25,086 bases of DNA from Candidatus Poribacteria bacterium (GTDB taxonomy: Bacteria > Abyssobacteria > SURF-5). Location of the stretch: the NCBI GenBank assembly GCA_016215705.1, contig JACRIR010000081.1:1-25086 (forward strand), in the 5' to 3' direction. Below, piece after piece: positions 456 to 12,593 of the stretch. The notes beneath the pieces are model-generated. The model had not been told where the DNA came from. It searched no databases and saw only the letters and a list, made by a program, of their open reading frames with translations. The position numbers were made by a program, and so were the translations under genes. Numbering within the stretch: position 1 is the stretch's first letter; the number at the start of each line of letters is the position of its first letter.

Positions 456-692
456 GATTGACGCTCTTCGCTAAAATCCGCGTCCGTCAGCATGGCTGAG
501 CCTGTCTTCCAGGCGAAGTCCCGCGCTTCGAGGGATTCAATCCGAAATCCGCAATCTGCAATCAGTTGACTCGCGACGCGAGACTCTCTTCCCCTTTTAC
601 CTCTTTCCCCGTTTCCCCAAAGATTGATTTATTCGTGCCATTCGTCCCATTCGTGATCCAACTCTTCTTCTTTTTCATTTTTCTTTTGCCTC
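456..692. other. Intergenic DNA without a recognisable gene
   Basis: Between the antitoxin and the lexA promoter. It holds low-complexity pieces such as CCGAAATCCGCAATCTGCAATC and pyrimidine-rich runs (590-690). Open frames here, including one of 86 codons from 566 that runs through the promoter, show no codon pattern or family resemblance and are not called. Confidence 0.6.
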
Positions 693-721
693 TTGACAAG
701 TATACAAATGTATACTATAAT
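693..721 (+). promoter_or_regulatory. Consensus sigma70 promoter of the lexA cassette
   Basis: TTGACA at 693-698 and TATAAT at 716-721 are separated by exactly 17 bases, a full consensus match in both boxes. Transcription would start near 728, leaving a leader of about 220 bases before lexA. The spacer is almost completely filled by an 18-bp palindrome (separate entry), so a bound repressor would block RNA polymerase. Confidence 0.85.
699..716. promoter_or_regulatory. Putative LexA operator (18-bp perfect palindrome)
   Basis: AGTATACAAATGTATACT has 8-bp perfect arms (AGTATACA / TGTATACT) around a 2-base centre. It occupies the promoter spacer and the first base of the -10 box, upstream of lexA. 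LexA normally represses its own gene, so this is the natural operator candidate. It is neither the E. coli CTGT-N8-ACAG nor the Bacillus GAAC-N4-GTTC sequence, although its spacing resembles the latter. No second full copy was seen in the window. Confidence 0.65.
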
Positions 722-906
722 TCCAGAGAGGGGCAAGACGAAAGGAACAAGACGAAAGGAAACCACCAAGAGAGTGCGAAGCGTCTAAAGTGTTCGACAG
801 TGCCTAAAGTGTCTAAAGCAAGCTAAAGTTCGGAAAAAGGATAAAGCCCTGCTGAAATCCGCAGATTGCGCAGAAAAATCAGTGAGAATCTGCGAATAAA
901 AAGAGA

Positions 907-932
907 GATTCTTCGCTTCGCTCAGAATGACA
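907..932. repeat. 26-bp dispersed repeat, copy 1
   Basis: Starts GATTCTTCGCTTCGCTCAGA and continues ATGACA; an identical 26-base copy lies at 3699-3724. It ends only 19 bases before the lexA start, so the lexA translation initiation region abuts the repeat. Confidence 0.75.
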
Positions 933-951
933 GAGAAAGAGAGAAACCATC

Positions 952-1722
952 GTGCGGACAGAGTTGACGGACCGGCAGAAGGAAATATTGGATTTCATAA
1001 GGGATTTCACGCATGGGAACGGCTATCCGCCCACAATGCGGGAGATCGGGGGCCACTTCGGATTCATGCCCCGGGCAGCGACAAATCATGTGAATGCTCT
1101 GGTACGGAAAGGATACATCTCAAAACAACCGCTGAAATCGCGCTCGCTGACAGTGGCCGGACACGACGCTGGGTCGAGGACGCAGCCCCGACTAGGCGGG
1201 GCGCCCCTACAAAAGGGACTAAAATCTCGGTCGATGATAGTGGCTGATCACGGTCGCGCTGATTTCGACCACGCCAATTCAAACAACCTCGGCCTGGACA
1301 AGCACGGCTTCGCCCGGCGTGGCTGGGACAAGGGCGATCTGCGCAAAGTGCCGATAGTCGGCCGCGTCGCCGCCGGCGAACCTATCCTCGCGGTCGAGAA
1401 CATCGAGGGGGCGGTCATGCTGCCCGCAGGATGGGCGCAGGCCGACGATTGTTTTCTGCTCCGTGTCGAGGGCGACAGCATGGTGGACGCACATATCTGT
1501 TCCGGCGACTACGTGCTCGTCAAGCGCCAGCCCATAGCCGAAAGCGGCGAAATCGTGGTCGCCCTGCTGGGCGACGAGGCGACAGTCAAACGATTCATTA
1601 TCAAAAAAGACCGGATTGTGCTGAAGCCCGAAAACAAGAATATGGAACCGATTCATGTCAAGAGCGGAGATAAATCGTTCCGGATTATTGGGAAAGTAAT
1701 CGGCGTGTGGAGAAGTATATAG
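952..1722 (+). CDS. lexA: LexA repressor with hinge insertion
   Basis: SOS repressor and self-cleaving serine protease, 256 residues against about 200 in the usual family. The GTG start at 952 is chosen because MRTELTDRQKEILDFI is the normal LexA N-terminus; the ribosome site (AGAGAG) is weak. The N-terminal winged helix-turn-helix spans about 1-65. Self-cleavage is expected at Ala141-Gly142 in GRVAAGEPI, with catalytic Ser176 in GDSM and Lys213 in ATVKRF; their spacing of 37 equals that of E. coli Ser119-Lys156. The hinge at about 66-130 is enlarged: LKSRSLTVAGHD (61-72) recurs as LKSRSMIVADHG (90-101), with repeat-like DNA between the copies. All catalytic residues are present, so it should be RecA-cleavable. 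It heads a cassette with a RecA-like protein and a family B polymerase, implying damage-inducible control of those genes. Confidence 0.93.
   Translation: MRTELTDRQKEILDFIRDFTHGNGYPPTMREIGGHFGFMPRAATNHVNALVRKGYISKQPLKSRSLTVAGHDAGSRTQPRLGGAPLQKGLKSRSMIVADHGRADFDHANSNNLGLDKHGFARRGWDKGDLRKVPIVGRVAAGEPILAVENIEGAVMLPAGWAQADDCFLLRVEGDSMVDAHICSGDYVLVKRQPIAESGEIVVALLGDEATVKRFIIKKDRIVLKPENKNMEPIHVKSGDKSFRIIGKVIGVWRSI
1168..1218. repeat. Repeat-derived insert in the lexA hinge
   Basis: 51 bases between two diverged 36-base direct repeats (1132-1167 and 1219-1254, 26 of 36 identical by eye). Its right part, ending GGGGCGCCCCTACAAAAG, resembles the end of the paired-palindrome element at 5930-5999 (GGGTCGCCCCTACAAAG). 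The duplication plus insert adds 87 bases, that is 29 codons, in frame. Confidence 0.55.
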
Positions 1723-2067
1723 CAACCACGGATTACACGGATTTGGGGAAAAGAAAAAGAAACACTATTAACCACAGATGAACACAGATTAACACAGATT
1801 CTTGGAAAAAAGCAAAAAGAAACGAAAGGGCAGTGTTAACTCACTATGAATGCAGAACGGGAAGAAGAACAGAAGAAAATCTGTGTCTATCTGTGTGCAT
1901 CTGTGATTCCCCGTTGCTTTTTCTTCTTTTGCTTCGGCTCTGAGAACTCGGCGCTCTCTGTGGCTTAAGAAGGTCGTGGGTATATGGAAAACCATATAAA
2001 AAACGAAACGGCAAATCCCCCTCTTTCCCCCTTTGCAAAGGGGGACGAAGGGAGATTTAAGAAAAGC
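1723..2067. repeat. Intergenic DNA with inverted decamer arrays
   Basis: 345 bases between lexA and the RecA-like start. Three decamers of ACACAGATNA type (about 1771-1800) face three of ATCTGTGTNN type (about 1878-1907) in inverted orientation, so the transcript could fold into a long hairpin. Further along lies a C-rich inverted-repeat element (separate entry). No promoter or terminator was recognised, so read-through from the lexA promoter is possible. Confidence 0.6.
2013..2058. repeat. C-rich inverted-repeat element, short copy
   Basis: Begins AAATCCCCCT and ends AGGGAGATTT, a 10-bp terminal inverted repeat with one mismatch, with an inner TTTGCAAA core. It is a 46-bp relative of the 76-bp elements in the polymerase gene. 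It lies in an open frame continuous with the RecA-like gene and would read NPPLSPFAKGDEGRF. Confidence 0.7.
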
Positions 2068-2733
2068 ATGGCTTGTCCAGAAAACAGTGCTATCGAGAGA
2101 ATCTGCGCCGACTTAAGGACGCCTGTGCCGCCGGCCAATATCGTATTGGCTTACGGTAAACCCGCGTACTCGGTGACGTATCTTGCGCTTCACATGGCAT
2201 TTGCGGGGATTGCCCGCGAAAAACCGGTGGTGTTTCTCGACGGCGCAAACTCATTCGACCCGTTTCTTATATCGAAAATTGCGCGCAAGACCGGGCTTGT
2301 CCCCGAGGAACTACTGGGCCGACTCTACATATCGCGCGCGTTCACGTGCCACCAAATGCAGGCGCTCGTGGTGGAACGCCTGGCGGGCGCATTTCGCAGA
2401 TTCAAGACGAACGTCGCGATAGTGTCGGGTCTGCTCAGCACGTTTTACGGCCAGGATGTGCCGTTCAATGAAGCGTACGATTTACTCAAGGCCATAACGA
2501 CCGAGTTCGTTCGGCTGGCAGGTGAAGGCGCCCACATTCTGATTGCCTGTCCTGATACGCATCTCCCTCTCGAATCAAGACAGCGGCAGTTCGTGGGTCT
2601 TCTCAAGAATATCTCCAACAGGGTGCTTCGAAGCGAGGGAAGCAACGGAAGGACAGGCTTCATTTTGGAGCGCCCGTACAGGAAAGAGTATGAATTGATC
2701 GAGATTCCTCAGTTTTCCCAAACATGGAGATAA
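2068..2733 (+). CDS. RecA/RadA-like protein with degenerate ATPase motifs
   Basis: 221 residues from ATG 2068. The frame is open back to ATG 1984, but those 28 extra residues are mostly encoded by the C-rich repeat, so the inner start is preferred; neither has a strong ribosome site. The fold pattern is RecA-like: a strand and P-loop position at IVLAYGKPAYSVTYLALHMA, then VVFLDGANSFDP (compare RecA IDAEHALDP), then VAIVSGLLSTFY at the Walker B position. Aligned by eye, the Walker A Gly and Lys, the catalytic Glu and the Walker B Asp are all replaced, so ATP hydrolysis is unlikely. RecA-like proteins of this kind (ImuA/SulA-related) accompany ImuB and DnaE2 in SOS mutagenesis cassettes. Here it lies between lexA and a family B polymerase, so an accessory role in recruiting or regulating that polymerase is inferred. 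It is not a second RecA. Confidence 0.7.
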   Translation: MACPENSAIERICADLRTPVPPANIVLAYGKPAYSVTYLALHMAFAGIAREKPVVFLDGANSFDPFLISKIARKTGLVPEELLGRLYISRAFTCHQMQALVVERLAGAFRRFKTNVAIVSGLLSTFYGQDVPFNEAYDLLKAITTEFVRLAGEGAHILIACPDTHLPLESRQRQFVGLLKNISNRVLRSEGSNGRTGFILERPYRKEYELIEIPQFSQTWR

Positions 2734-3275
2734 AAAGAGGGAATCCGCAGATTGCGCTGATTAACACTGATTTAAAGGAAAATGAAGAAAAAAAAGATAT
2801 AAAACCGCAGCGCGGCAGGGCCGCAACCAAACGGCACACGTTGGGCGCGATGAATCGCGCCCCTACGGGGCTTTTGGTTCGACCCTGTAGGGGCGCAATT
2901 CATTGCGCCCGCATTAGTTCCATGCGACATGTCAACGGAATCATGACACAGTTTCAAGAAAACAACAGTTAGTAGTACAGAGCACACGGCGCAGCACAGC
3001 CGCAACCAAGCAAAGAAGAAAAAGTTTGGATCACGAATTATACGAATACAACTTCCTGAGTGTCATTCCTGCGAAAGCGGGAATCCATTTTGTGACAACG
3101 ACTTATATGAGGACTTTGCCAAAAATCACGACGGAAATCAAAGAAAATACAATGGAGTAGTACGGAGATCATGAAGAGGGAGAACAAGCAGCAAAAAGGA
3201 ATGATTAGGCGCTCTCCGTGGTTTAAGAAGTCTTTTTAATCTGCGAAATCTGCGGATTAAGAAAAGGTGACGCTT
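2734..3275. repeat. Repeat-rich intergenic DNA
   Basis: 542 bases without a credible gene. It contains pieces of AATCCGCAGATTGCGCTGATT type (about 2742), the paired-palindrome element at 2843-2910, a piece TGTCATTCCTGCGAAAGCGG (about 3060), and AATCTGCGAAATCTGCGG just before the next gene. All are dispersed intergenic repeat types. Confidence 0.6.
2843..2910. repeat. Paired-palindrome element, copy A (68 bp)
   Basis: Two palindromes, GGGCGCGATGAATCGCGCCC (2843-2862) and GGGCGCAATTCATTGCGCCC (2891-2910), each with 9-bp arms. They are joined by a spacer bordered by CCTAC on the left and GTAGG on the right. The layout matches 12693-12761 and is the inside-out form of 5930-5999. Confidence 0.85.
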
Positions 3276-3620
3276 ATGGGAAGAACAGTATTGCCCATTG
3301 CGCAGGTCATACAGCAAGAACGCGAGGAATGGTCGAAGTTCCGGCGCGTGCTCAGAAAAGAGGACCAGGCGGCGTTCGATGAGATGTTCGACAGCGCGAA
3401 ATATCATTCGGCCGCATGCGCATATGCGTCGCGTCCTGTGCCGATGGAATCGATTTTCATGGCCGTTCTGCTCGAGCACCAGAAGACGATTGCGGCGCTG
3501 CGCGAGCAGATTAAAAAACTGGAAACCTTTACCACGGGGAACACGGGGAGCACGAGGGAAAGAGAAAAAACAAAAAGAGAAAAAGACTCAAAAGAAGAAA
3601 AAGAAACAGATTACAAATGA
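3276..3620 (+). CDS. Small protein of unknown function beside PolB
   Basis: 114 residues from ATG 3276, chosen because AAGGTGA ends five bases upstream and MGRTVLP looks like a conserved start; GTG 3267 would add three residues. Residues 1-80 look like a compact helical, charged domain (EEWSKFRRVLRKEDQAAFDEMF, AACAYA, VLLEHQKTIAALREQ) ending in a short coiled coil. I recall similar small proteins starting MGRT from archaea (possibly DUF8156), but cannot verify this. The last 30 residues are low complexity, rich in Lys, Glu and Arg, and come from DNA like the CACGGGGA-type intergenic repeats, so the original C-terminus probably ended near residue 85. Its position immediately before the polymerase suggests an accessory or adaptor role. 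No enzymatic motif is visible. Confidence 0.65.
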   Translation: MGRTVLPIAQVIQQEREEWSKFRRVLRKEDQAAFDEMFDSAKYHSAACAYASRPVPMESIFMAVLLEHQKTIAALREQIKKLETFTTGNTGSTREREKTKREKDSKEEKETDYK

Positions 3621-3959
3621 CCGAATCACACAAATAAATGGTATGTGAAAAGGGAGTAAGAGAAGCTTCCGCAAAAGTCGCAGCCATTCGGGGGATTAGA
3701 TTCTTCGCTTCGCTCAGAATGACAACAGTAGAGTCATGGGTTGCGAGTCGCAAGTCATCCTATTTTGGATTCTGAATTTTAGATTTTGGAGTAGAACCCC
3801 GTGCTCCCGTGGTGGAGCATAGGTTTGCGGTTTATCGTCGAAGTCGGAATTCGTGTAATTAGTGTAATTAGTGTTCCAAGAAGTTCTTTTCTTTGCGCTC
3901 TTTGCGTCTTTGCGGTGAGATTTTATCTGAGAAAATCAGTGAAATCTGCGGATAAGAAA
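3621..3959. repeat. Repeat-rich leader of the polymerase gene
   Basis: 339 bases holding the second 26-base repeat copy (3699-3724), GATTCTGAATTTTAGATTTT, a CCCCGTGCTCCCGTGG piece, CTTTGCGTCTTTGCGGTGAG, and AAATCAGTGAAATCTGCGG. The polymerase frame is open back to 3801, but this part encodes only repeat-derived sequence. Confidence 0.6.
3699..3724. repeat. 26-bp dispersed repeat, copy 2
   Basis: Identical over 26 bases to 907-932, which precedes lexA. Here it lies between the small gene and the polymerase gene. Confidence 0.75.
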
Positions 3960-6900
3960 ATGTTTCGTGGTTGGCTATTCGACATATATTCCGGCGAACG
4001 CGGCATGACGCTGTGGCTGATAGGAACCGACGGCAGGCGCGTCCGTCTCGAAGCCCCGTATAGACCTTCATTTTTTGTCGCCGGCACAAATTACGTACTG
4101 GAACGCGTGAAAGGAATATTTCGCCAGAGGAATGAGCAAGCGCCGTCTTATGCCCCACGCAACACGCAAGACGTAACACGCGATACGCAACACGTAATAC
4201 GTAATACGGAACACGCGATACGTAACACGCCCCACGCGCCCGTATCATTTTCCATGACGGAACAGCGTGATTTCTGGTCCGGCCGCGCCGTACCGGTCTT
4301 GCGCGTAACCACAAGCGTGCGGAATTTTCATTCAACCGTTAAACAGATTGCCAAAATCAGCGGCGCGGAGTTGTACAACTGCGATATTCCGCCCGAGCAA
4401 ATGTACCTGTATGAGACGGGTCTTTTTCCGTTGGCGCTCTGCGAGGTGGAAATCGCCGATGACGGAACCGTCGCATCCATTCGCGCATGTGATTCGCCCT
4501 GGGATATCGATTACTCACTGCCGCCACTGGAAATTTTCAAGCTTTCCATAAGCGGAAATGGCGCCAACCCGAACTATGGGGGAAAAGGGCATGGCCTGAA
4601 AGTGGAGGTTGACGGCACGGAGTATCTCTTGGAGGAGAGCGAGTTGCTCGATACGCTCGATGATATGCTCAAACGGTATGACCCCGACCTGCTACTGACT
4701 GAATGGGGCGACTCATTCATAATCCCGCGCCTCACTCTGATGGCCGAAAGGCAGGGACATCCTCTCTCGCTCAACCGCGAGCCGAAGCGCTCAACTGCAA
4801 CCCGCCGGGGCTCTTCGTATTTCTCCTATGGACGCATAATTTATCGTGCGCCCTCGCGAACCCTGTTCGGTCGCTGGCACATAGACGTGGAAAACTCATT
4901 CATAGCGTCGGAAACCGGTCTCGATGGACTATTCGAGCTTGCGCGTCTGACGAAGATTCCGATACAGCGTCTCGCGCGGACGTCCCCCGGCACAGGCATC
5001 TCCTCGATGCAACTCGATATGGCGATACACGACGGCGTGCTGATTCCCTGGCGGAAGCGGATGCCGGAAGATTTCAAGACAGGACTCGAGCTTCTTGTCA
5101 GCGATAAGGGCGGGCTCGTATATCTTCCGAAACCGGGCGTGTACGAGAACGTCATGGAGATAGATTTCGCCTCGATGTATCCGGCGATCATGGTGAATCA
5201 TAACATCTCGCCTGAGACGATAAACTGCTCATGCTGCGAGGGTAACCATCACGATGAGAAGTTGTCTCAAGATTCTGTTGGCGCCAATTTGTCCGCACGG
5301 CCAGAGCAAGAACAGGATGGAGTTAATGTGCGAATAAATTCGCACCTACAGAAGGGCGAAATCCCCCTCTCTCCCCCTTTGCAAAGGGGGAGTTTTAATA
5401 TCCCCTTTTATCAAAGGGGGATGAAGGGGGATTTACCTGACTCGAGCGCTCAATTACAGGACAATCACGGAGGAAAACCTCACGAAGGCAAGTTCGCGGC
5501 TGAACATCCTGTGGGCGAGCCCGTGCCGGAGATCGGGCATCATGTCTGCCGGAAGCGAAGGGGACTGGTCCCGCGAGTGCTCGAGCCGATTCTGGAAAAA
5601 CGGCGGATTTATAAAGAGATTGCAAACACAAATCCCCCCTTGCCCCCTTTTGACAAAGAGGGGGAAAACAAAAAGGCGAAAGGGAAGGAACAAATTGAGG
5701 AAAAAGCCGAAATTCCCCTCTTTCCCCCTTTGCAAAGGGGGAGCCTTGATTTCCCCCTTTATCACAGGGGGATGAAGGGGGATTTAGGAAACGGCGAAAA
5801 GCGAAATAGAGAACCAGGGGCAAGACAAAAAATGAATCCCACGCCTTGCAGGACAAAAGAAAAAGAGAAAGAGATTACAGGAGAATGTGAATCCAGCCAA
5901 CAATCTCTGAAAGGAGATTCAGATGATTCTGTAGGGGCGACCCGGTGGGTCGCCCAAGAACCGTCCTCTCAACGCGCGACCCGCCGGGTCGCCCCTACAA
6001 AGAATTGCCGGATGGATTCTGAAAAAGAACTTAGCGAACAAATTCGAGACCTAAAAGCATCATGCAAGAAGCGGCAAAACGCGCTCAAATGGATGTTGGT
6101 TACCTGCTTCGGGTATCTCGGCTATAAGAATGCTCGGTTCGGGCGGATCGAAGCGCATGAAGCAGTCACTGCGCTGGGACGCGAGAAGCTTCTTCAAGCA
6201 AAGGAAATAGCCGAGCGCAGAGGATTCGAGCTGGTGCACGCCATTGTGGACTCACTGTGGGTCAGCAAGACTCCCAAAGAAGAGGAAAGACGAAAGGGCC
6301 AAAGGGAGCAAAGAGATAATTCGGGGACACCTTGCCGCAAGGTGTCCCCGAATTATCGGGCGAAAAGGGGAAACGGCGAAAAGGGAAAAGTCAAAGAAGA
6401 AGAAAAGGACCAGCAAGGGCTCCTCCGCGAGATATCCGAATCTGTCGGCATTCCTATCGCACTCGAGGGGAATTACCGCTGGATCGCGTTTGTGCCTTCG
6501 CGCACTGCGCCGACCGTCGCCGTCGCAAACAGATATTTCGGCCTGTTCGACAATGGCGAGATGAAGATGCGGGGGCTCGAGGTGCGGCGGTCCGATATTC
6601 CGCCGATTGTCCGGAGAATGCAGGCGGAGATGCTCAAGGTTCTTTCCTCAACTTCGACAGCGGAAGAATTCGCGCGAAAGGCGCCCGAAATACTGGAAAT
6701 CCTGAAGCGCTACCTCGCGCGGCTCAGGAGTGGCGAGGTACAGGCCGCGGACCTGGTCATTTCACAAAAACTCTCAAAGAATCCGTCCGAGTATAAGACG
6801 AATACAGCAATGGCCGCAGCCGCCGGCACGTTATTAGCCTCGGGAATCAAACCTCAGCCGGGCGAGAGAGTAGAATTGATACTTGTGGACTCGAAAGCCC

Positions 6901-7055
6901 ATGGGCAGGCAACAAAAGCGATACCTTACACTGCCAGTGTCGAAAACATAGACGCCTACGACGTCGAAAAATATTCTGAACTGCTCATCAGAGCCGCCGA
7001 AACCGTTTTGCTCAGACGGCTTGAGAAAAAAGACATCGAGGAGGAACTCCTGTAG
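3960..7055 (+). CDS. Family B DNA polymerase (PolB2/Dpo2-like, proofreading motifs lost)
   Basis: 1031 residues from ATG 3960, where MFRGWLFDIYSGERG begins; 53 further open codons upstream are repeat-derived. Polymerase motif A is EIDFASMYP with Asp402. Motif B is KWMLVTCFGYLGYKN, residues 710-724. Motif C is HAIVDSLWV with Asp764, replacing YGDTDS, so the first Asp of DTD is lost and the second, metal-binding one is kept. The exonuclease part (about 190-360) lacks the expected DxE of Exo I (KLSISGNG instead) and a clear Exo II or III, so proofreading is probably absent. This resembles the archaeal PolB2/Dpo2 group; Sulfolobus Dpo2 is reported as a damage-inducible mutagenic polymerase. Repeat elements enlarge the protein at about 67-94, 430-518, 556-690 and 772-817, between motifs and always in frame. 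The lexA and RecA-like neighbours suggest SOS-induced lesion bypass. Activity is inferred. Confidence 0.85.
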   Translation: MFRGWLFDIYSGERGMTLWLIGTDGRRVRLEAPYRPSFFVAGTNYVLERVKGIFRQRNEQAPSYAPRNTQDVTRDTQHVIRNTEHAIRNTPHAPVSFSMTEQRDFWSGRAVPVLRVTTSVRNFHSTVKQIAKISGAELYNCDIPPEQMYLYETGLFPLALCEVEIADDGTVASIRACDSPWDIDYSLPPLEIFKLSISGNGANPNYGGKGHGLKVEVDGTEYLLEESELLDTLDDMLKRYDPDLLLTEWGDSFIIPRLTLMAERQGHPLSLNREPKRSTATRRGSSYFSYGRIIYRAPSRTLFGRWHIDVENSFIASETGLDGLFELARLTKIPIQRLARTSPGTGISSMQLDMAIHDGVLIPWRKRMPEDFKTGLELLVSDKGGLVYLPKPGVYENVMEIDFASMYPAIMVNHNISPETINCSCCEGNHHDEKLSQDSVGANLSARPEQEQDGVNVRINSHLQKGEIPLSPPLQRGSFNIPFYQRGMKGDLPDSSAQLQDNHGGKPHEGKFAAEHPVGEPVPEIGHHVCRKRRGLVPRVLEPILEKRRIYKEIANTNPPLPPFDKEGENKKAKGKEQIEEKAEIPLFPPLQRGSLDFPLYHRGMKGDLGNGEKRNREPGARQKMNPTPCRTKEKEKEITGECESSQQSLKGDSDDSVGATRWVAQEPSSQRATRRVAPTKNCRMDSEKELSEQIRDLKASCKKRQNALKWMLVTCFGYLGYKNARFGRIEAHEAVTALGREKLLQAKEIAERRGFELVHAIVDSLWVSKTPKEEERRKGQREQRDNSGTPCRKVSPNYRAKRGNGEKGKVKEEEKDQQGLLREISESVGIPIALEGNYRWIAFVPSRTAPTVAVANRYFGLFDNGEMKMRGLEVRRSDIPPIVRRMQAEMLKVLSSTSTAEEFARKAPEILEILKRYLARLRSGEVQAADLVISQKLSKNPSEYKTNTAMAAAAGTLLASGIKPQPGERVELILVDSKAHGQATKAIPYTASVENIDAYDVEKYSELLIRAAETVLLRRLEKKDIEEELL
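4157..4240 (+). repeat. Heptanucleotide array (12 units) inside polB
   Basis: Twelve consecutive 7-base units, most of the form ACGNRAY, for example ACGCAAC, ACGTAAT and ACGCGAT. Because 7 is not a multiple of 3, three units make a 21-base period and the protein shows four heptapeptides: RNTQDVT, RDTQHVI, RNTEHAI, RNTPHAP (residues 67-94). Confidence 0.88.
5359..5434 (+). repeat. 76-bp inverted-repeat element inside polB, copy 1
   Basis: Ends are AAATCCCCCT and AGGGGGATTT, a perfect 10-bp terminal inverted repeat. Inside are CCCCCTTTGCAAAGGGGG and a second CCCCTTTTATCAAAGGGG hairpin. It encodes EIPLSPPLQRGS then IPFYQRGMKGDL in the polymerase, between motifs A and B. Confidence 0.88.
5631..5666 (+). 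repeat. Partial C-rich element inside polB
   Basis: A shorter relative (AAATCCCCCCTTGCCCCC facing AAAGAGGGGGAAAA) that encodes NPPLPPFDKEGE. It lies between the two full-length 76-bp copies. The same peptide pattern NPPL-PF-K-G is encoded by the element before the RecA-like gene. Confidence 0.65.
5710..5785 (+). repeat. 76-bp inverted-repeat element inside polB, copy 2
   Basis: Same length and layout as 5359-5434, 351 bases (117 codons) downstream, so the same reading frame is used: EIPLFPPLQRGS then FPLYHRGMKGDL. Ends are AAATTCCCCT and AGGGGGATTT, with one mismatch. Confidence 0.88.
5930..5999 (+). repeat. Paired-palindrome element inside polB (70 bp)
   Basis: A 14-bp perfect terminal inverted repeat, TGTAGGGGCGACCC and GGGTCGCCCCTACA, with a GACCC-GGGTC palindrome at each end. 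It encodes VGATRWVAQ and ATRRVAPT (residues 658-680). It is the outside-out form of the elements at 2843 and 12693. Confidence 0.85.
6315..6357 (+). repeat. 43-bp perfect palindrome inside polB
   Basis: Arms of 20 bases (GATAATTCGGGGACACCTTG and its reverse complement) around CCG. It is translated as DNSGTPCRKVSPNY, in a Lys/Glu-rich insert after motif C. A GGGGACACCTT core is typical of REP-like palindromes in many bacteria. Confidence 0.88.
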
Positions 7056-7068
7056 GGGCTGTTCTTTT

Positions 7069-7096
7069 CATTCATCATTCATCACTCATCATTCCT
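7069..7096. repeat. Heptamer repeat (4 units), left of the SDR gene
   Basis: CATTCAT, CATTCAT, CACTCAT, CATTCCT. It shares an exact 17-base string TTCATCACTCATCATTC with 8107-8123, in the same orientation, so the SDR gene lies between direct repeats. Confidence 0.75.
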
Positions 7097-7136
7097 GCAT
7101 AATTCTCCCGTTTCCCCTTTTACCCTTTTCCCCCTC

Positions 7137-7922
7137 CTATACGCTCCCCATCAGTTCCTCGTAGTCCACGCCGCGCAATCCCTGGCCGCCATCTACAAAG
7201 AACACCTGGCCGGTCACCCAGTCCGAGCGGTCGCTCGCAAGGAAAAGCGCCATTTCAGCGACGTCGCCTGTCTCCCCCATTCGTCTCAGCGGCGTTTCAC
7301 GCACGACGAGTTCTTTCCAGCCCGGCTGGTCGAGATGCCGCTGAATAAGCGGCGTCATGGTTTCACCCGGAGCGATCGCGTTGACGCGTATCTTGTGCTT
7401 GCCTAATTCGACGGCGGCAACACGGGTAACCATGTTGACCGCGGCCTTGGCAGTGCAGTAGCCGATTGCGCCCCCAAGTGGCACACGCGAAGCGGCAGAC
7501 GACAGAGTAACTATCTTTCCACCCGTTTTCTGTTTGACCATCTGTCGCGCCGCGGCCCTGATTCCGTAAAATGCGCCGTGCAGCATTACGTCTATGAGCA
7601 TGTGCCAATGCTCATCGTCGATATCCAACAGCCTGCCGGCGTAATTCAGTCCGGCGCCGTTCACGAGAATGTCGAGTTTGCCAAATCGGCGGGCTGCCTC
7701 TTCAACAGCGGCGTCAACCATTTCGCTCCGGGTGACATCGGCCACAAAAGAATGCACGTGCCCCGGGCCTTGAAACTCGCGCGCAGCCTTCTTCAGGGCG
7801 TCCTCGTTTCGGTCAACCAAAAGCAACTGGGCGCCTTCTCGATGGAAGACACGCGCTATCTCGAGGTCGATGCCCGATGCGGCGCCGGTAATAAGCGCCA
7901 CCTGATTCTCCAACTCTGCCAT
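7137..7922 (-). CDS. Short-chain dehydrogenase/reductase (FabG-like)
   Basis: 261 residues on the minus strand, with Shine-Dalgarno AAAGGAG nine bases before the ATG. A classical SDR fold: cofactor loop TGAASGID near residue 13, NGAG at the usual NNAG position, catalytic Ser in LSSAAS, and Tyr and Lys in YCTAK. The Asp in LLVDRNED, at the end of strand 2, favours NAD(H) over NADP(H). The C-terminal FFVDGGQGL is typical of FabG-like members. The last Gly of the TGxxxGxG loop is Asp here, an unusual change next to the cofactor phosphates. The substrate cannot be told: oxoacyl-ACP, sugar and other alcohol reductases look alike. It converges with polB and has no operon partner. Family assignment is sure; the reaction is not. 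Confidence 0.9.
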   Translation of the reverse strand: MAELENQVALITGAASGIDLEIARVFHREGAQLLLVDRNEDALKKAAREFQGPGHVHSFVADVTRSEMVDAAVEEAARRFGKLDILVNGAGLNYAGRLLDIDDEHWHMLIDVMLHGAFYGIRAAARQMVKQKTGGKIVTLSSAASRVPLGGAIGYCTAKAAVNMVTRVAAVELGKHKIRVNAIAPGETMTPLIQRHLDQPGWKELVVRETPLRRMGETGDVAEMALFLASDRSDWVTGQVFFVDGGQGLRGVDYEELMGSV

Positions 7923-8438: not shown

Positions 8439-11400
8439 ATGTCAACTGTCAGCGTAGAAGACAAGATCACATTGGCAAAAATAACTATCGATGAGCAGCA
8501 AGTTCTCGCGAACAGCGAGCGTACGATCCTGGAAACTTGCAGAGAGAACAATATCACCATCCCTACGCTTTGCCACGACGAGCAACTGAATCCGCTTGGG
8601 TCGTGTCAATTGTGTGTAGTTGAACTCGAGGGCCACGGGCTCGTCACCTCATGCAACACACGCGTAGCCGACGGGATGGAAATCCGCACAGACAGCGCCA
8701 AAGTCATCGCCTCCCGCAAGAAGATATTGAAGACGCTGCTCGCCGAACACTACGGCGATTGCGTCGCGCCATGCCAGAAGGCATGCCCTGCCGGAATAGA
8801 TATCCAGGGCTACCTCGCGCTGATTGCGCGCGGGGCATTCACCGAAGCTGTCGGGCTCATCAAGGAAAGGCTTCCAATACCGGCAACCATCGGCCGCATA
8901 TGCCCCCACCCGTGCGAGCAGGCATGCCGCAGAAATCTTGTTGACGAACCCCTGTCCATTTGCTCGCTGAAACGTTTTGCGGCCGATCAGGAAATGTCCG
9001 GCGTACGCAAGTTCGTGCCGACTCTCAAGCCCGCAAGCGGCCTCAAAGTCGCAATCGTGGGTGGCGGACCTGCCGGCCTTTCCGCGGCCTATTATCTTGC
9101 CCGAGAAGGACACGCCGCCACCATTTTCGAAACGCTCCCGAAAGCAGGCGGCATGCTGCGCTACGGAATACCTGATTACCGCCTGCCACAAAATATCCTC
9201 GACAAGGAAATCGACTCGATCAAGAACATGGGCGTGAAAATACTGACCGGCAAGTCGCTCGGGAAGGATTTCACGGTGAAGAGCCTTTTGGCGGAAGGCT
9301 ACAATGCGGTGTTCCTTGCCATCGGCGCGCACCAAAGTCAGAAGATGAGGGTCGAAGGCGAAAAACTCCAGGGAGTTCTGCCCGGCATCGATTTCCTTCG
9401 CAATGCGGCGATGGGGAAAGAAACAGGCATGGGCAAACGAGTCGCCGTTGTGGGTGGAGGCAATACAGCCATTGATGCGGCCCGCGTGTCGCTGCGGCTC
9501 GGCGCAGAAGAAGTCACCATCATATACCGTCGCTCGCGAACCGAGATGCCGGCCACCGATTGGGAGGTCGAGGAAGCCGAAGAGGAAGGCGTCAAGCTGC
9601 GTTTCCTCGCGGCCCCCGAAAAAATCATAGGCGAAAACGGAAAAGTCAAAGCCATTGAGTGCATCAAAATGGCGTTGGGCGAACCGGACGCCAGCGGTCG
9701 CAGGCGGCCTGAGCCGGTGGCTCGTTCGCAATTCATCCTGAACGTTGACACTGTCATCGCGGCAATCGGCCAGAAACCGGAACTCTCCTCTCTCAATTCA
9801 GGCGCGGACGTGATGGCGCCCCTATCCCCCGTATCCGAACAAGACGCAATCGCAGTCGAGCGCGGCAACATCACCGCCCACTCCGAGACACTCCTCACCA
9901 ATATGAAGGGTGTCTTTGCAGGCGGCGACTGTGTGACGGGCGCGGCCACCGCAGTCGAGGCCGTCGCAGCAGGAAGAAGAGCCGCAATGGCGATTGACCG
10001 TTTCCTGAAGGGGGAAGACCTCGCGGAGCCCGAAAAACCATTCGAGATCACCAAGGGCAAGCTGGATGAAGTGAACGAAACCGAGTTCGCACACTTCGAG
10101 CGCAAGCCGCGCGCAAAGATGCCGAAGCTCCCGGAGCATGATCGCTTAAAAGGCTTCCCTGAGGTCGAGTTGGGCTTCCCCGAAGAAGTTGCGCGAAAAG
10201 AAGCGTCTCGATGCCTCGAGTGCGGCTGCAAAGCTCAAGATGACTGCGATCTTCGAGACCTCGCAACTGAATACGAACTGGATTCGATGACCGCAACGCG
10301 GAATCTCCGGCTTTTCCCGCGTGATTTGACGCATCCGTTTGTCGAGCGCGACCCCAATAAGTGTATTGCCTGCTCGAAGTGCGTTCACATATGCCAAGAA
10401 GTTCAAGGGGTCGGCGCGCTGAGCCTCGGCTACCGCGTGACACCGGTTGGCACAAGCCTGTCGCTAATGGACACAACGTGCGTCTCGTGCGGACAATGCG
10501 TCGCCACGTGTCCGGTTGGCGCGCTCGTCCGCAAGAAGGGGCTCAAACCTGCTCGCGAGGTCAAGACAATCTGCCCATATTGCGGCGTTGGCTGCGGCAT
10601 CTATCTCGGCGTTCGCGGCGATTTCGTTGTGGACGCGCGGGCGGATTTCGATAATCCTGTCAGCCGTGGCAACCTGTGCGTCAAGGGGCAGTTCGGTCAC
10701 GAATTCATCAATCATCCGGACCGATTGAAGACGCCTCTGATTAAGAAGAACGGCAAGTTTGTTGAGGCAAGCTGGGATGAGGCGCTCGGCCTCATCGCAG
10801 CCAAACTTCCGCAGTACAAAGGCGACCATTTCGCCGCGCTCTCATCGGCGAGGTGCACGAACGAAGACAACTATGTCTTCCAAAAATTCGTAAGGGGGGT
10901 GATGGGCACAAACAACGTAGACCACTGTGCCCGTCTCTGACACTCCCCCTCTGTGGCCGGTCTGGCCACAGCATTCGGCAGCGGCGCCATGACTAATTCC
11001 ATCAATGAAATCGAATCGGCTGCCTGCATCTTGACCATTGGAACAAACACTACATACAATCATCCCGTTATCGGGCTGCGAATCAAGAAGGCAGTCAGAA
11101 ACGGCGCAAAACTGATCGTAGCCAATCCCCGGCGCATACGGCTGTGCCATTTTGCAGACCTCTGGCTGCGGCAACGGCCTGGCACTGACCTGGCGCTTCT
11201 TATGGGCATCATGCGTGTAATCGTCGACGAGCGTCTGTATGATGAAGCCTTTATTTCCGGGCGCTGCGAGAACTTCGACGCATTCAAGAAGTCGCTTGCC
11301 GACTTCGACCTTGATACCGTCGAGAAAATCACCGGCGTGCCGCGCGAACAGATAAAGAAAGCGGCGAGGATGTACGCCGGCACAAAGCCGGCCACACTCC

Positions 11401-12593
11401 TGTATGCTATGGGCATCACGCAACACGCTCACGGAACCGACAACGTGCTCGCCGTCGGCAATCTGGCGATGCTTACCGGCAACATCGGCAAGCCCTCGAG
11501 CGGTGTGAATCCGCTGCGAGGCCAGAACAACGTGCAGGGCTCCTGCGATATGGGCGCTTTGCCGAACGTACTGACCGGCTATCAGCAGGTGGCGGATGAG
11601 GCATCCCGCGACAAGTTCGAAAAAGCGTGGCAGACGAAGCTGTCGCCCAAGCCGGGCATCACGCTCATGGAAATCATGGAAGGCGCAATCGAGGGAAAGA
11701 TTCGCGCCATGTACATCATGGGTGAGAATCCGGCCCTCTCGGACCCGGACAGCAATCACGTCCGCAAGGCGCTCGACAGCCTTGATTTCCTCATCGTGCA
11801 GGACATATTCCTCACCGAGACAGCACAACTCGCCCATGTCGTGTTGCCGGCAGTCTCATTCGCGGAGAAGGACGGAACCTTCACGAATACGGAGCGACGG
11901 GTGCAGAGAGTTCGGAAAGCCATCGAGCCGATCGGCTCAGCGCGACCTGACTGGCAGATAGTCTGCGACATTGCGACCCGTATGGGGCATCCGGGCTTTT
12001 CATTCAACTCCGCCGAAGAAGTATTCGACGAAATCAGAAAACTGACGCCGCAATATGCAGGCATTACATATCAACGATTGGACGAGGCCGGCATCCAGTG
12101 GCCGTGTCCTACTACGGACCATCCGGGCACGCCGATTCTGCACATCGGGAAATTCAGCCGCGGAAAAGGTCACTTCTCCGCGCTTGAATACAAACTATCG
12201 GCCGAAACTCCGGATGAGCAGTATCCGCTCATTCTGGTGACTGAACGCGCACGCTATCACTACCATACGGGCACAATGACTCGTCGCGTCGAGGGTCTTA
12301 ACATACTGCGAGACCAGGAACTCGTCGAGATGAACTCGAAGGATGCTTCCGCCCTTGGAATCGGCGATGGGGAAATGGTGCGCGTGGTTTCCCGGCGTGG
12401 AGAGGTCACAGCGCGCGCTAAGGTCACTGAGGATTCACCGCTCGGCGCGATCTCGATGACATTCCATTTTGTCGAGAGCCCGACGAACGTGCTAACGAAC
12501 CCCGCGCTCGACCCGGTCGCCAAGATTCCGGCTCTCAAAGTCTGCGCAGTGCGCGTGGAAAAACTGACGCAGACAAAAGCCGCCAAATCGTGA
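8439..12593 (+). CDS. fdhA: GltD-fused formate dehydrogenase alpha subunit, selenoprotein
   Basis: One 1384-residue protein read through TGA 10938-10940 as selenocysteine 834, in CARLUHSPSVAGL; ribosome site AGAGAGGA. Domains in order: 2Fe-2S ferredoxin (C45, C56, C59, C72); a GltD-type cluster region (C108, C112, C116, C155, C159, C163); FAD and NAD(P) Rossmann loops (GGGPAGLSAAY near 208, VVGGGNTAIDAAR near 337); an extra Cys group (C592-C603); two 4Fe-4S sites (C642-C652, C681-C691); the FDH cluster (C712, C715, C719, C747); the molybdenum or tungsten bis-MGD domain with U834-H835; and a C-terminal MGD-binding domain from about 1260. It should interconvert formate and CO2, with electrons passing through the clusters to the flavin domain and NAD(P). 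No separate diaphorase subunit is nearby, which the fusion may explain. Function as CO2 reductase or formate oxidase cannot be told. A read as two broken genes is rejected. Confidence 0.95.
10938..10971 (+). promoter_or_regulatory. UGA selenocysteine codon and SECIS hairpin
   Basis: The in-frame TGA (10938-10940) is followed after 10 bases by CTGTGGCC (10951-10958), loop GGTCT (10959-10963) and GGCCACAG (10964-10971), a perfect 8-bp stem. The E. coli fdhF SECIS also has GGUCU in its apical loop, read by SelB. The hairpin is itself coding (VAGLATA region). Confidence 0.92.

Follow-up and report, generated by a model that had tools for sequence, protein, structure and literature searches.

The window analyzed here, a stretch of 25,086 nucleotides, is one contig (C259) of the 270-contig, 5.47 Mb assembly of a Candidatus Poribacteria bacterium (GCA_016215705.1; genome G000). 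Within positions 952-7055 it carries four plus-strand genes, which encode LexA, the RadA-like protein iRadA, the small protein PPB2, and the family B DNA polymerase PolB2 (Table 1). An earlier note on this DNA had described lexA, a RecA-like gene, a small-protein gene, and a polB gene as running in one direction behind one consensus promoter with a palindromic operator, and our gene and profile matches confirmed this arrangement; the promoter is the single one to score 12/12 within positions 500-7400. A short-chain dehydrogenase gene on the opposite strand closes the cluster, and a search of the window against Rfam returned no matches.

Table 1. Features of the lexA-iRadA-PPB2-PolB2 locus (positions in the window).
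Feature	Position	Strand	Remarks
Sigma-70-type promoter, TTGACA-17-TATAAT	693..721	+	12/12 match; layout unchanged upstream of the same lexA in G001 and G002
Putative LexA operator, AGTATACAAATGTATACT	699..716	.	8-nt arms, 2-nt centre; fills the promoter spacer
lexA	952..1722	+	Winged helix-turn-helix and S24 autoprotease; AG cleavage site, Ser, and Lys kept
49-aa in-frame insert, LexA interdomain linker	1165..1311	+	Missing from relatives
iRadA, ATPase-dead RadA/Rad51 core	1984..2733	+	RadA families; Rad51/RadA fold; Walker A lost
24-aa in-frame insert near iRadA N-terminus	1990..2061	+	Palindromic repeat with CCCCCTTTGCAAAGGGGG
PPB2, arCOG07300-like, N-terminal MGRT arm	3276..3620	+	Identity to PPB2 of relatives; MGRT motif of PMC11791011
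22-aa in-frame extra segment, PPB2 C-terminal tail	3525..3590	+	Alignment with relatives
PolB2 DNA polymerase	3960..7055	+	Core of 731 codons, with about 300 aa of inserts added
33-aa in-frame repeat insert, PolB2 N-terminal domain	4140..4238	+	14-nt tandem-like units
91-aa in-frame insert after PolB2 motif A	5241..5513	+	Palindromic repeats; pLDDT under 50
12-aa and 123-aa in-frame inserts, PolB2 fingers before motif B	5628..6050	+	Palindromic repeats; pLDDT mostly under 50
8-aa and 32-aa in-frame inserts after PolB2 motif C	6264..6398	+	Longer one with a perfect 21-nt inverted repeat

The lexA product scored 203.7 bits against TIGR00498 (cut-off, 110.95) and contains LexA_DNA_bind and Peptidase_S24 domains, and the AG cleavage site and the Ser and Lys residues are invariant in its alignment with relatives. 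iRadA gave a weak RadA match (E, 2.4e-6), while its AlphaFold2 model (mean pLDDT, 75.6) matched RAD51, DMC1, and RadA chains with E values of about 1e-8 to 1e-10 and target-normalised TM-scores of about 0.5-0.7, at 11-21% identity, indicating a predicted RadA/Rad51 fold that lacks the N-terminal domain. Its P-loop segment, GKPAYSVTY, stands opposite GPESSGKTT of the RecA Walker A motif, as anticipated when the gene was first described as RecA-like without ATPase motifs, and none of the aligned iRadA relatives keeps a Walker A motif. The best start of PPB2 (MGRT..., 114 aa), which gives it the N-terminal MGRT arm, lies inside an ORF listed as GTG 3267-3620; the protein is 72% identical to the small protein of a same-family genome (G001) and 38% identical to that of a Nitrospirae genome. 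For the polymerase, the ORF extends over 3801-7055, and the GTG start at 3801 that had been proposed is about 53 codons too early, the relatives aligning from the ATG at 3960 (MFRGWLFDIY).

Alignment of PolB2 with archaeal family B enzymes revealed altered active sites. Specifically, the motif A Asp is kept (EIDFASMYP), while in motif C (HAIVDSLW) the segment AIVDS falls opposite IDTDG, such that the first Asp of DxD is gone and the second is kept. The ExoII segment of archaeal PolB, YNGDNFxFPYL, aligns with EWGDSFIIPRL in the window, and these replacements at ExoII support the earlier view of the polymerase as proofreading-deficient. A D(K/R) loop (SDKGGL) precedes motif A, with an Asp that is invariant among 12 PolB2s, and in structure comparison the predicted PolB2 model was matched to archaeal enzymes of family B.

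The earlier note had named a conserved neighbourhood in other genomes as one of two points on which its interpretation would stand or fall, and the neighbourhood proved to be conserved. A single-sequence scan of genome contigs for relatives of the window PolB2 came back empty, its patterns lying partly on inserts, while an alignment-based query succeeded, recovering 17 loci among named genomes of Nitrospirota, Elusimicrobia, Aquificota, WOR-3, Omnitrophota, Thermoflexales, Methylomirabilota, Armatimonadetes, Nitrospinae, Thermodesulfobacteriota, and two archaea. In surveys of the phyla to which three of these loci belong, PolB2 genes were found in 6/147, 21/340, and 57/395 genomes, counts whose weakest matches may be related family B polymerases rather than PolB2. 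Among the 48 PolB2 loci that lie outside the window's family and have at least 1 kb upstream, PPB2 was present in 45, iRadA in 44, and a same-strand lexA in 33, with all three found together in 32. Within the family, G001 has a compact lexA-iRadA-PPB2-PolB2 operon, in which lexA runs 16 nt into iRadA and 6 nt separate iRadA from PPB2. In the window, the intergenic distances are 260-540 bp and the gaps hold repeats that include terminator-like hairpins (e.g., 2859-2871), and co-transcription of PolB2 is therefore less certain here than in G001.

A system of this kind is not new, as the lexA-iRadA-arCOG07300-PolB2 operon was published in 2014 and its complex was modelled in 2025. In the portion of the former account drawn on here (Makarova et al. 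2014, PMC4104785), the last three genes are described as linked and, in some bacteria, as sharing a predicted operon with lexA, as in Leptospirillum ferriphilum LFML04_0990-0993, where the same four genes form one predicted operon, iRadA is inactivated, and the PolB2 motifs are changed; that portion reports no operator. Relative to the L. ferriphilum operon so described, the window copy comes from a different, little-sampled bacterial family, its genes lie far apart, and each of the four contains in-frame inserts. The latter account (Timinskas et al. 2025, PMC11791011) modelled a PolB2-iRadA-(PPB2)3 complex, found lexA enriched near bacterial polB2, and derived the bacterial operon from archaeal PolB2 through one transfer by phylogeny. 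The window shares with this PolB2 mutasome the iRadA-PPB2-PolB2 order on one strand, the MGRT arm, the DK loop, the xxD motif C, an iRadA without ATPase residues, and a nearby lexA, its gene content and order being the sole order reported for bacteria. It may differ in the beta-clamp motif that some members have in the C-terminus of iRadA or PolB2, none being apparent by eye at the C-terminal ends of the window proteins.

Hence, the window operon is very probably a bacterial PolB2 mutasome operon, LexA-repressed and damage-induced, that encodes a translesion or mutagenic complex of PolB2, iRadA, and PPB2. This reading draws on gene content, order, and conservation, on protein motifs, on a conserved operator, and on intact reading frames, all features seen at the level of sequence. 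Functional precedent comes from Sulfolobus islandicus Dpo2, a PolB2 that is induced by damage, is required for targeted mutagenesis, and is alone responsible for it (PMC7390963). Dpo2 and the window polymerase are alike in polymerase family and motif changes and probably in damage response; they differ in that Dpo2 is archaeal and without LexA control, and the demonstrations of damage induction and of mutagenesis concern this archaeal PolB2 alone. The Dpo2 results, together with the LexA linkage of the bacterial operons, make it unlikely that the main task of PolB2 and its partners is to restart forks or control replication rather than to mutagenize, a role that follows the 2014 reading of arORC2 linkage in archaea, as given in the portion of PMC4104785 drawn on here. 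PolB2 is not the sole translesion candidate of G000, as the genome also encodes one Y-family polymerase.

The lexA-imuA-imuB-dnaE2 cassettes of bacteria, which carry out SOS-linked mutagenesis with a RecA-fold accessory, resemble the window operon by analogy. The earlier note had gone further and proposed a mutasome in which PolB takes the place of DnaE2. The best reading is still a LexA-controlled family B mutasome whose partners are a RecA-fold pseudo-ATPase and a small accessory protein, but the idea of an ImuAB-DnaE2-type cassette with a swapped polymerase, in which the RecA-like protein would be ImuA, appears highly improbable, even though the two share the logic of lexA linkage, a RecA-fold accessory, and a polymerase without proofreading. 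The cassettes use a C-family polymerase and ImuB, whereas the polymerase here is of family B and the operon contains no Y-family, ImuB-like gene; neither polymerase nor architecture is homologous. Further, iRadA matches RadA/Rad51 and not a bacterial ImuA family, and bacterial PolB2 represents one transfer from archaea in the published phylogeny (PMC11791011). E. coli Pol II offers a further comparison as an SOS-linked family B polymerase, differing in being a single subunit with active proofreading.

The promoter itself provides a further line of evidence for LexA control. Its spacer (AGTATACAAATGTATAC) holds the putative operator, an 18-nt palindrome (AGTATACAAATGTATACT) whose exact sequence occurs once in the 5.47 Mb genome. 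The palindrome is identical in G001 and a one-base variant in the second same-family genome, G002, in each case between the -35 and -10 elements of the same lexA and amid differing flanking DNA; this conservation in two other genera of the family argues against a chance palindrome. A role as a genome-wide SOS box in G000 was rejected, as a genome scan for AGTATACAAATGTATACT at two mismatches gave matches no better than the chance control; a partial match at C208:60090 (GTTATACAAATGTATTCT) lies upstream of a ferredoxin-like ORF and is probably due to chance.

Palindromes also occupy promoter spacers elsewhere, with TTGACAACTATACATTTGTATAGTATATT in WOR-3 operons and TTGACACCCTACATATGTAGGGTATAAT and variants in Elusimicrobia ones. 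Under a fixed rule, which required a palindrome with arms of at least 6 nt inside the promoter spacer, 11 of 37 lexA-first loci scored, against 0.07 expected from base shuffles, the 11 including two near-identical WOR-3 genomes and three from the window's family. Counting against this pattern, most Nitrospirota lexA-first loci fail the rule, although some of them have palindromes close by, for example GGTGAACATTTGTTCACC. The same promoter-palindrome design stands directly before iRadA in 6 of 12 lexA-less operons, where the box is CGAACnnnnGTTCG or ATCGAACnnnnGTTCGAT, the latter resembling the classical Gram-positive LexA box. An AC-N4-GT core recurs in most of these sites, and on that ground we take them for probable LexA operators whose half-sites change. 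The operator data add to the published accounts of the PolB2 mutasome, the words promoter, operator, and SOS box being absent from the text of PMC11791011. They lend sequence-level support, from several bacterial phyla, to a LexA control that was earlier inferred from the proximity of lexA, and they put names to concrete candidate operators.

G000 encodes three LexAs, one in the window operon, one on contig C228 near recN, and one on contig C208 upstream of recA, and the promoter of the recA-side lexA has a different palindrome, ACCGTCATTAGACGGT, at the same promoter position. Given these three LexAs, the single copy of the window operator, and the different palindrome at the recA-linked lexA, we tentatively suggest that the window LexA could be a private repressor of the mutasome, whose induction could then be separate from that of the main SOS regulon. 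Were this so, mutagenesis could be switched separately from recA in these bacteria. A single cassette-specific LexA lineage that travels with PolB2 was also considered and found unsupported; in a 45-row LexA tree, which is short, has long branches, and includes among its "other" rows some from genomes with PolB2 on another contig, the PolB2-linked LexAs do not form one clade, and supported branches force at least 4 changes. This suggests that lexA has probably been exchanged or re-recruited. In a Nitrospirae WOFB21 operon (L059 4566-5312), the repressor is of S24 type, is not a canonical LexA, and is divergent from iRadA.

In the mechanism that we propose for this organism, LexA would sit on the spacer palindrome in the undamaged cell and block RNA polymerase, as the layout suggests, thereby silencing lexA and the three genes downstream. 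Upon DNA damage, a RecA filament would promote the self-cleavage of LexA, for which the catalytic residues are present, and the operon would be expressed as part of an SOS response. PolB2, which retains the catalytic Asp in each of motifs A and C and has lost the proofreading site, would assemble with iRadA and a trimer of PPB2 in the manner of the PMC11791011 model, and the complex would extend primers past lesions and make mutations, as may be expected from archaeal Dpo2. The in-frame inserts in all four genes should form disordered loops that leave the core undestroyed.

These inserts are an odd feature of the window copy. Compared with relatives, its proteins have nine additional segments, 394 aa in all; PolB2 accounts for six of them, and LexA, iRadA, and PPB2 for one apiece. 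Several are dispersed palindromic repeats, and CCCCCTTTGCAAAGGGGG has 66 exact copies in G000 and none in the same-family genomes G001 and G002. One could suspect a decaying operon, in which PolB2 has been or is being broken by inserted repeats and nothing but the autoregulation of lexA still counts: about 300 aa of the 1031-aa PolB2 are inserts, some beside catalytic motifs, repeats fill the intergenic gaps, and in G002, which has lexA-iRadA, PolB2 was not found in the assembly. We consider such decay quite improbable. The reading frame stays open through all nine inserts, against 33 stops in the two alternative frames of this DNA, and dN/dS is about 0.1 for each of the four genes, albeit with dS near saturation. 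Further, the low-confidence stretches of the PolB2 model (65-91, 430-517, 560-685, and 788-807) match the inserts while the core is well predicted, and in G002 the contig breaks off about 200 bp past iRadA, so the absence of PolB2 there may be an assembly limit. From its frames and its predicted model, we thus take the insert-bearing PolB2 for a probably functional protein that tolerates its insertions and not for a pseudogene. As such, it would offer a natural test of how far a polymerase tolerates repeat insertion.

Several minor observations emerged alongside. The PPB2 C-termini of several phyla (L053, L054, L055, L061, and L062) end, by eye, in a short tail such as WLDL, GVDL, or GLDL, possibly a clamp-binding-like end. 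Upstream of the operon, a YgiT/MqsA-type zinc-finger antitoxin-like gene occupies 198-455, and the sequence preceding it may encode a partner cut by the start of the window. Downstream, the frame of a formate-dehydrogenase-like gene (8439-12590) is broken by a TGA at 10938-10940, for which translation table 11 gives two ORFs and whose context, DHCARL-TGA-HSPSV, fits a selenocysteine codon.
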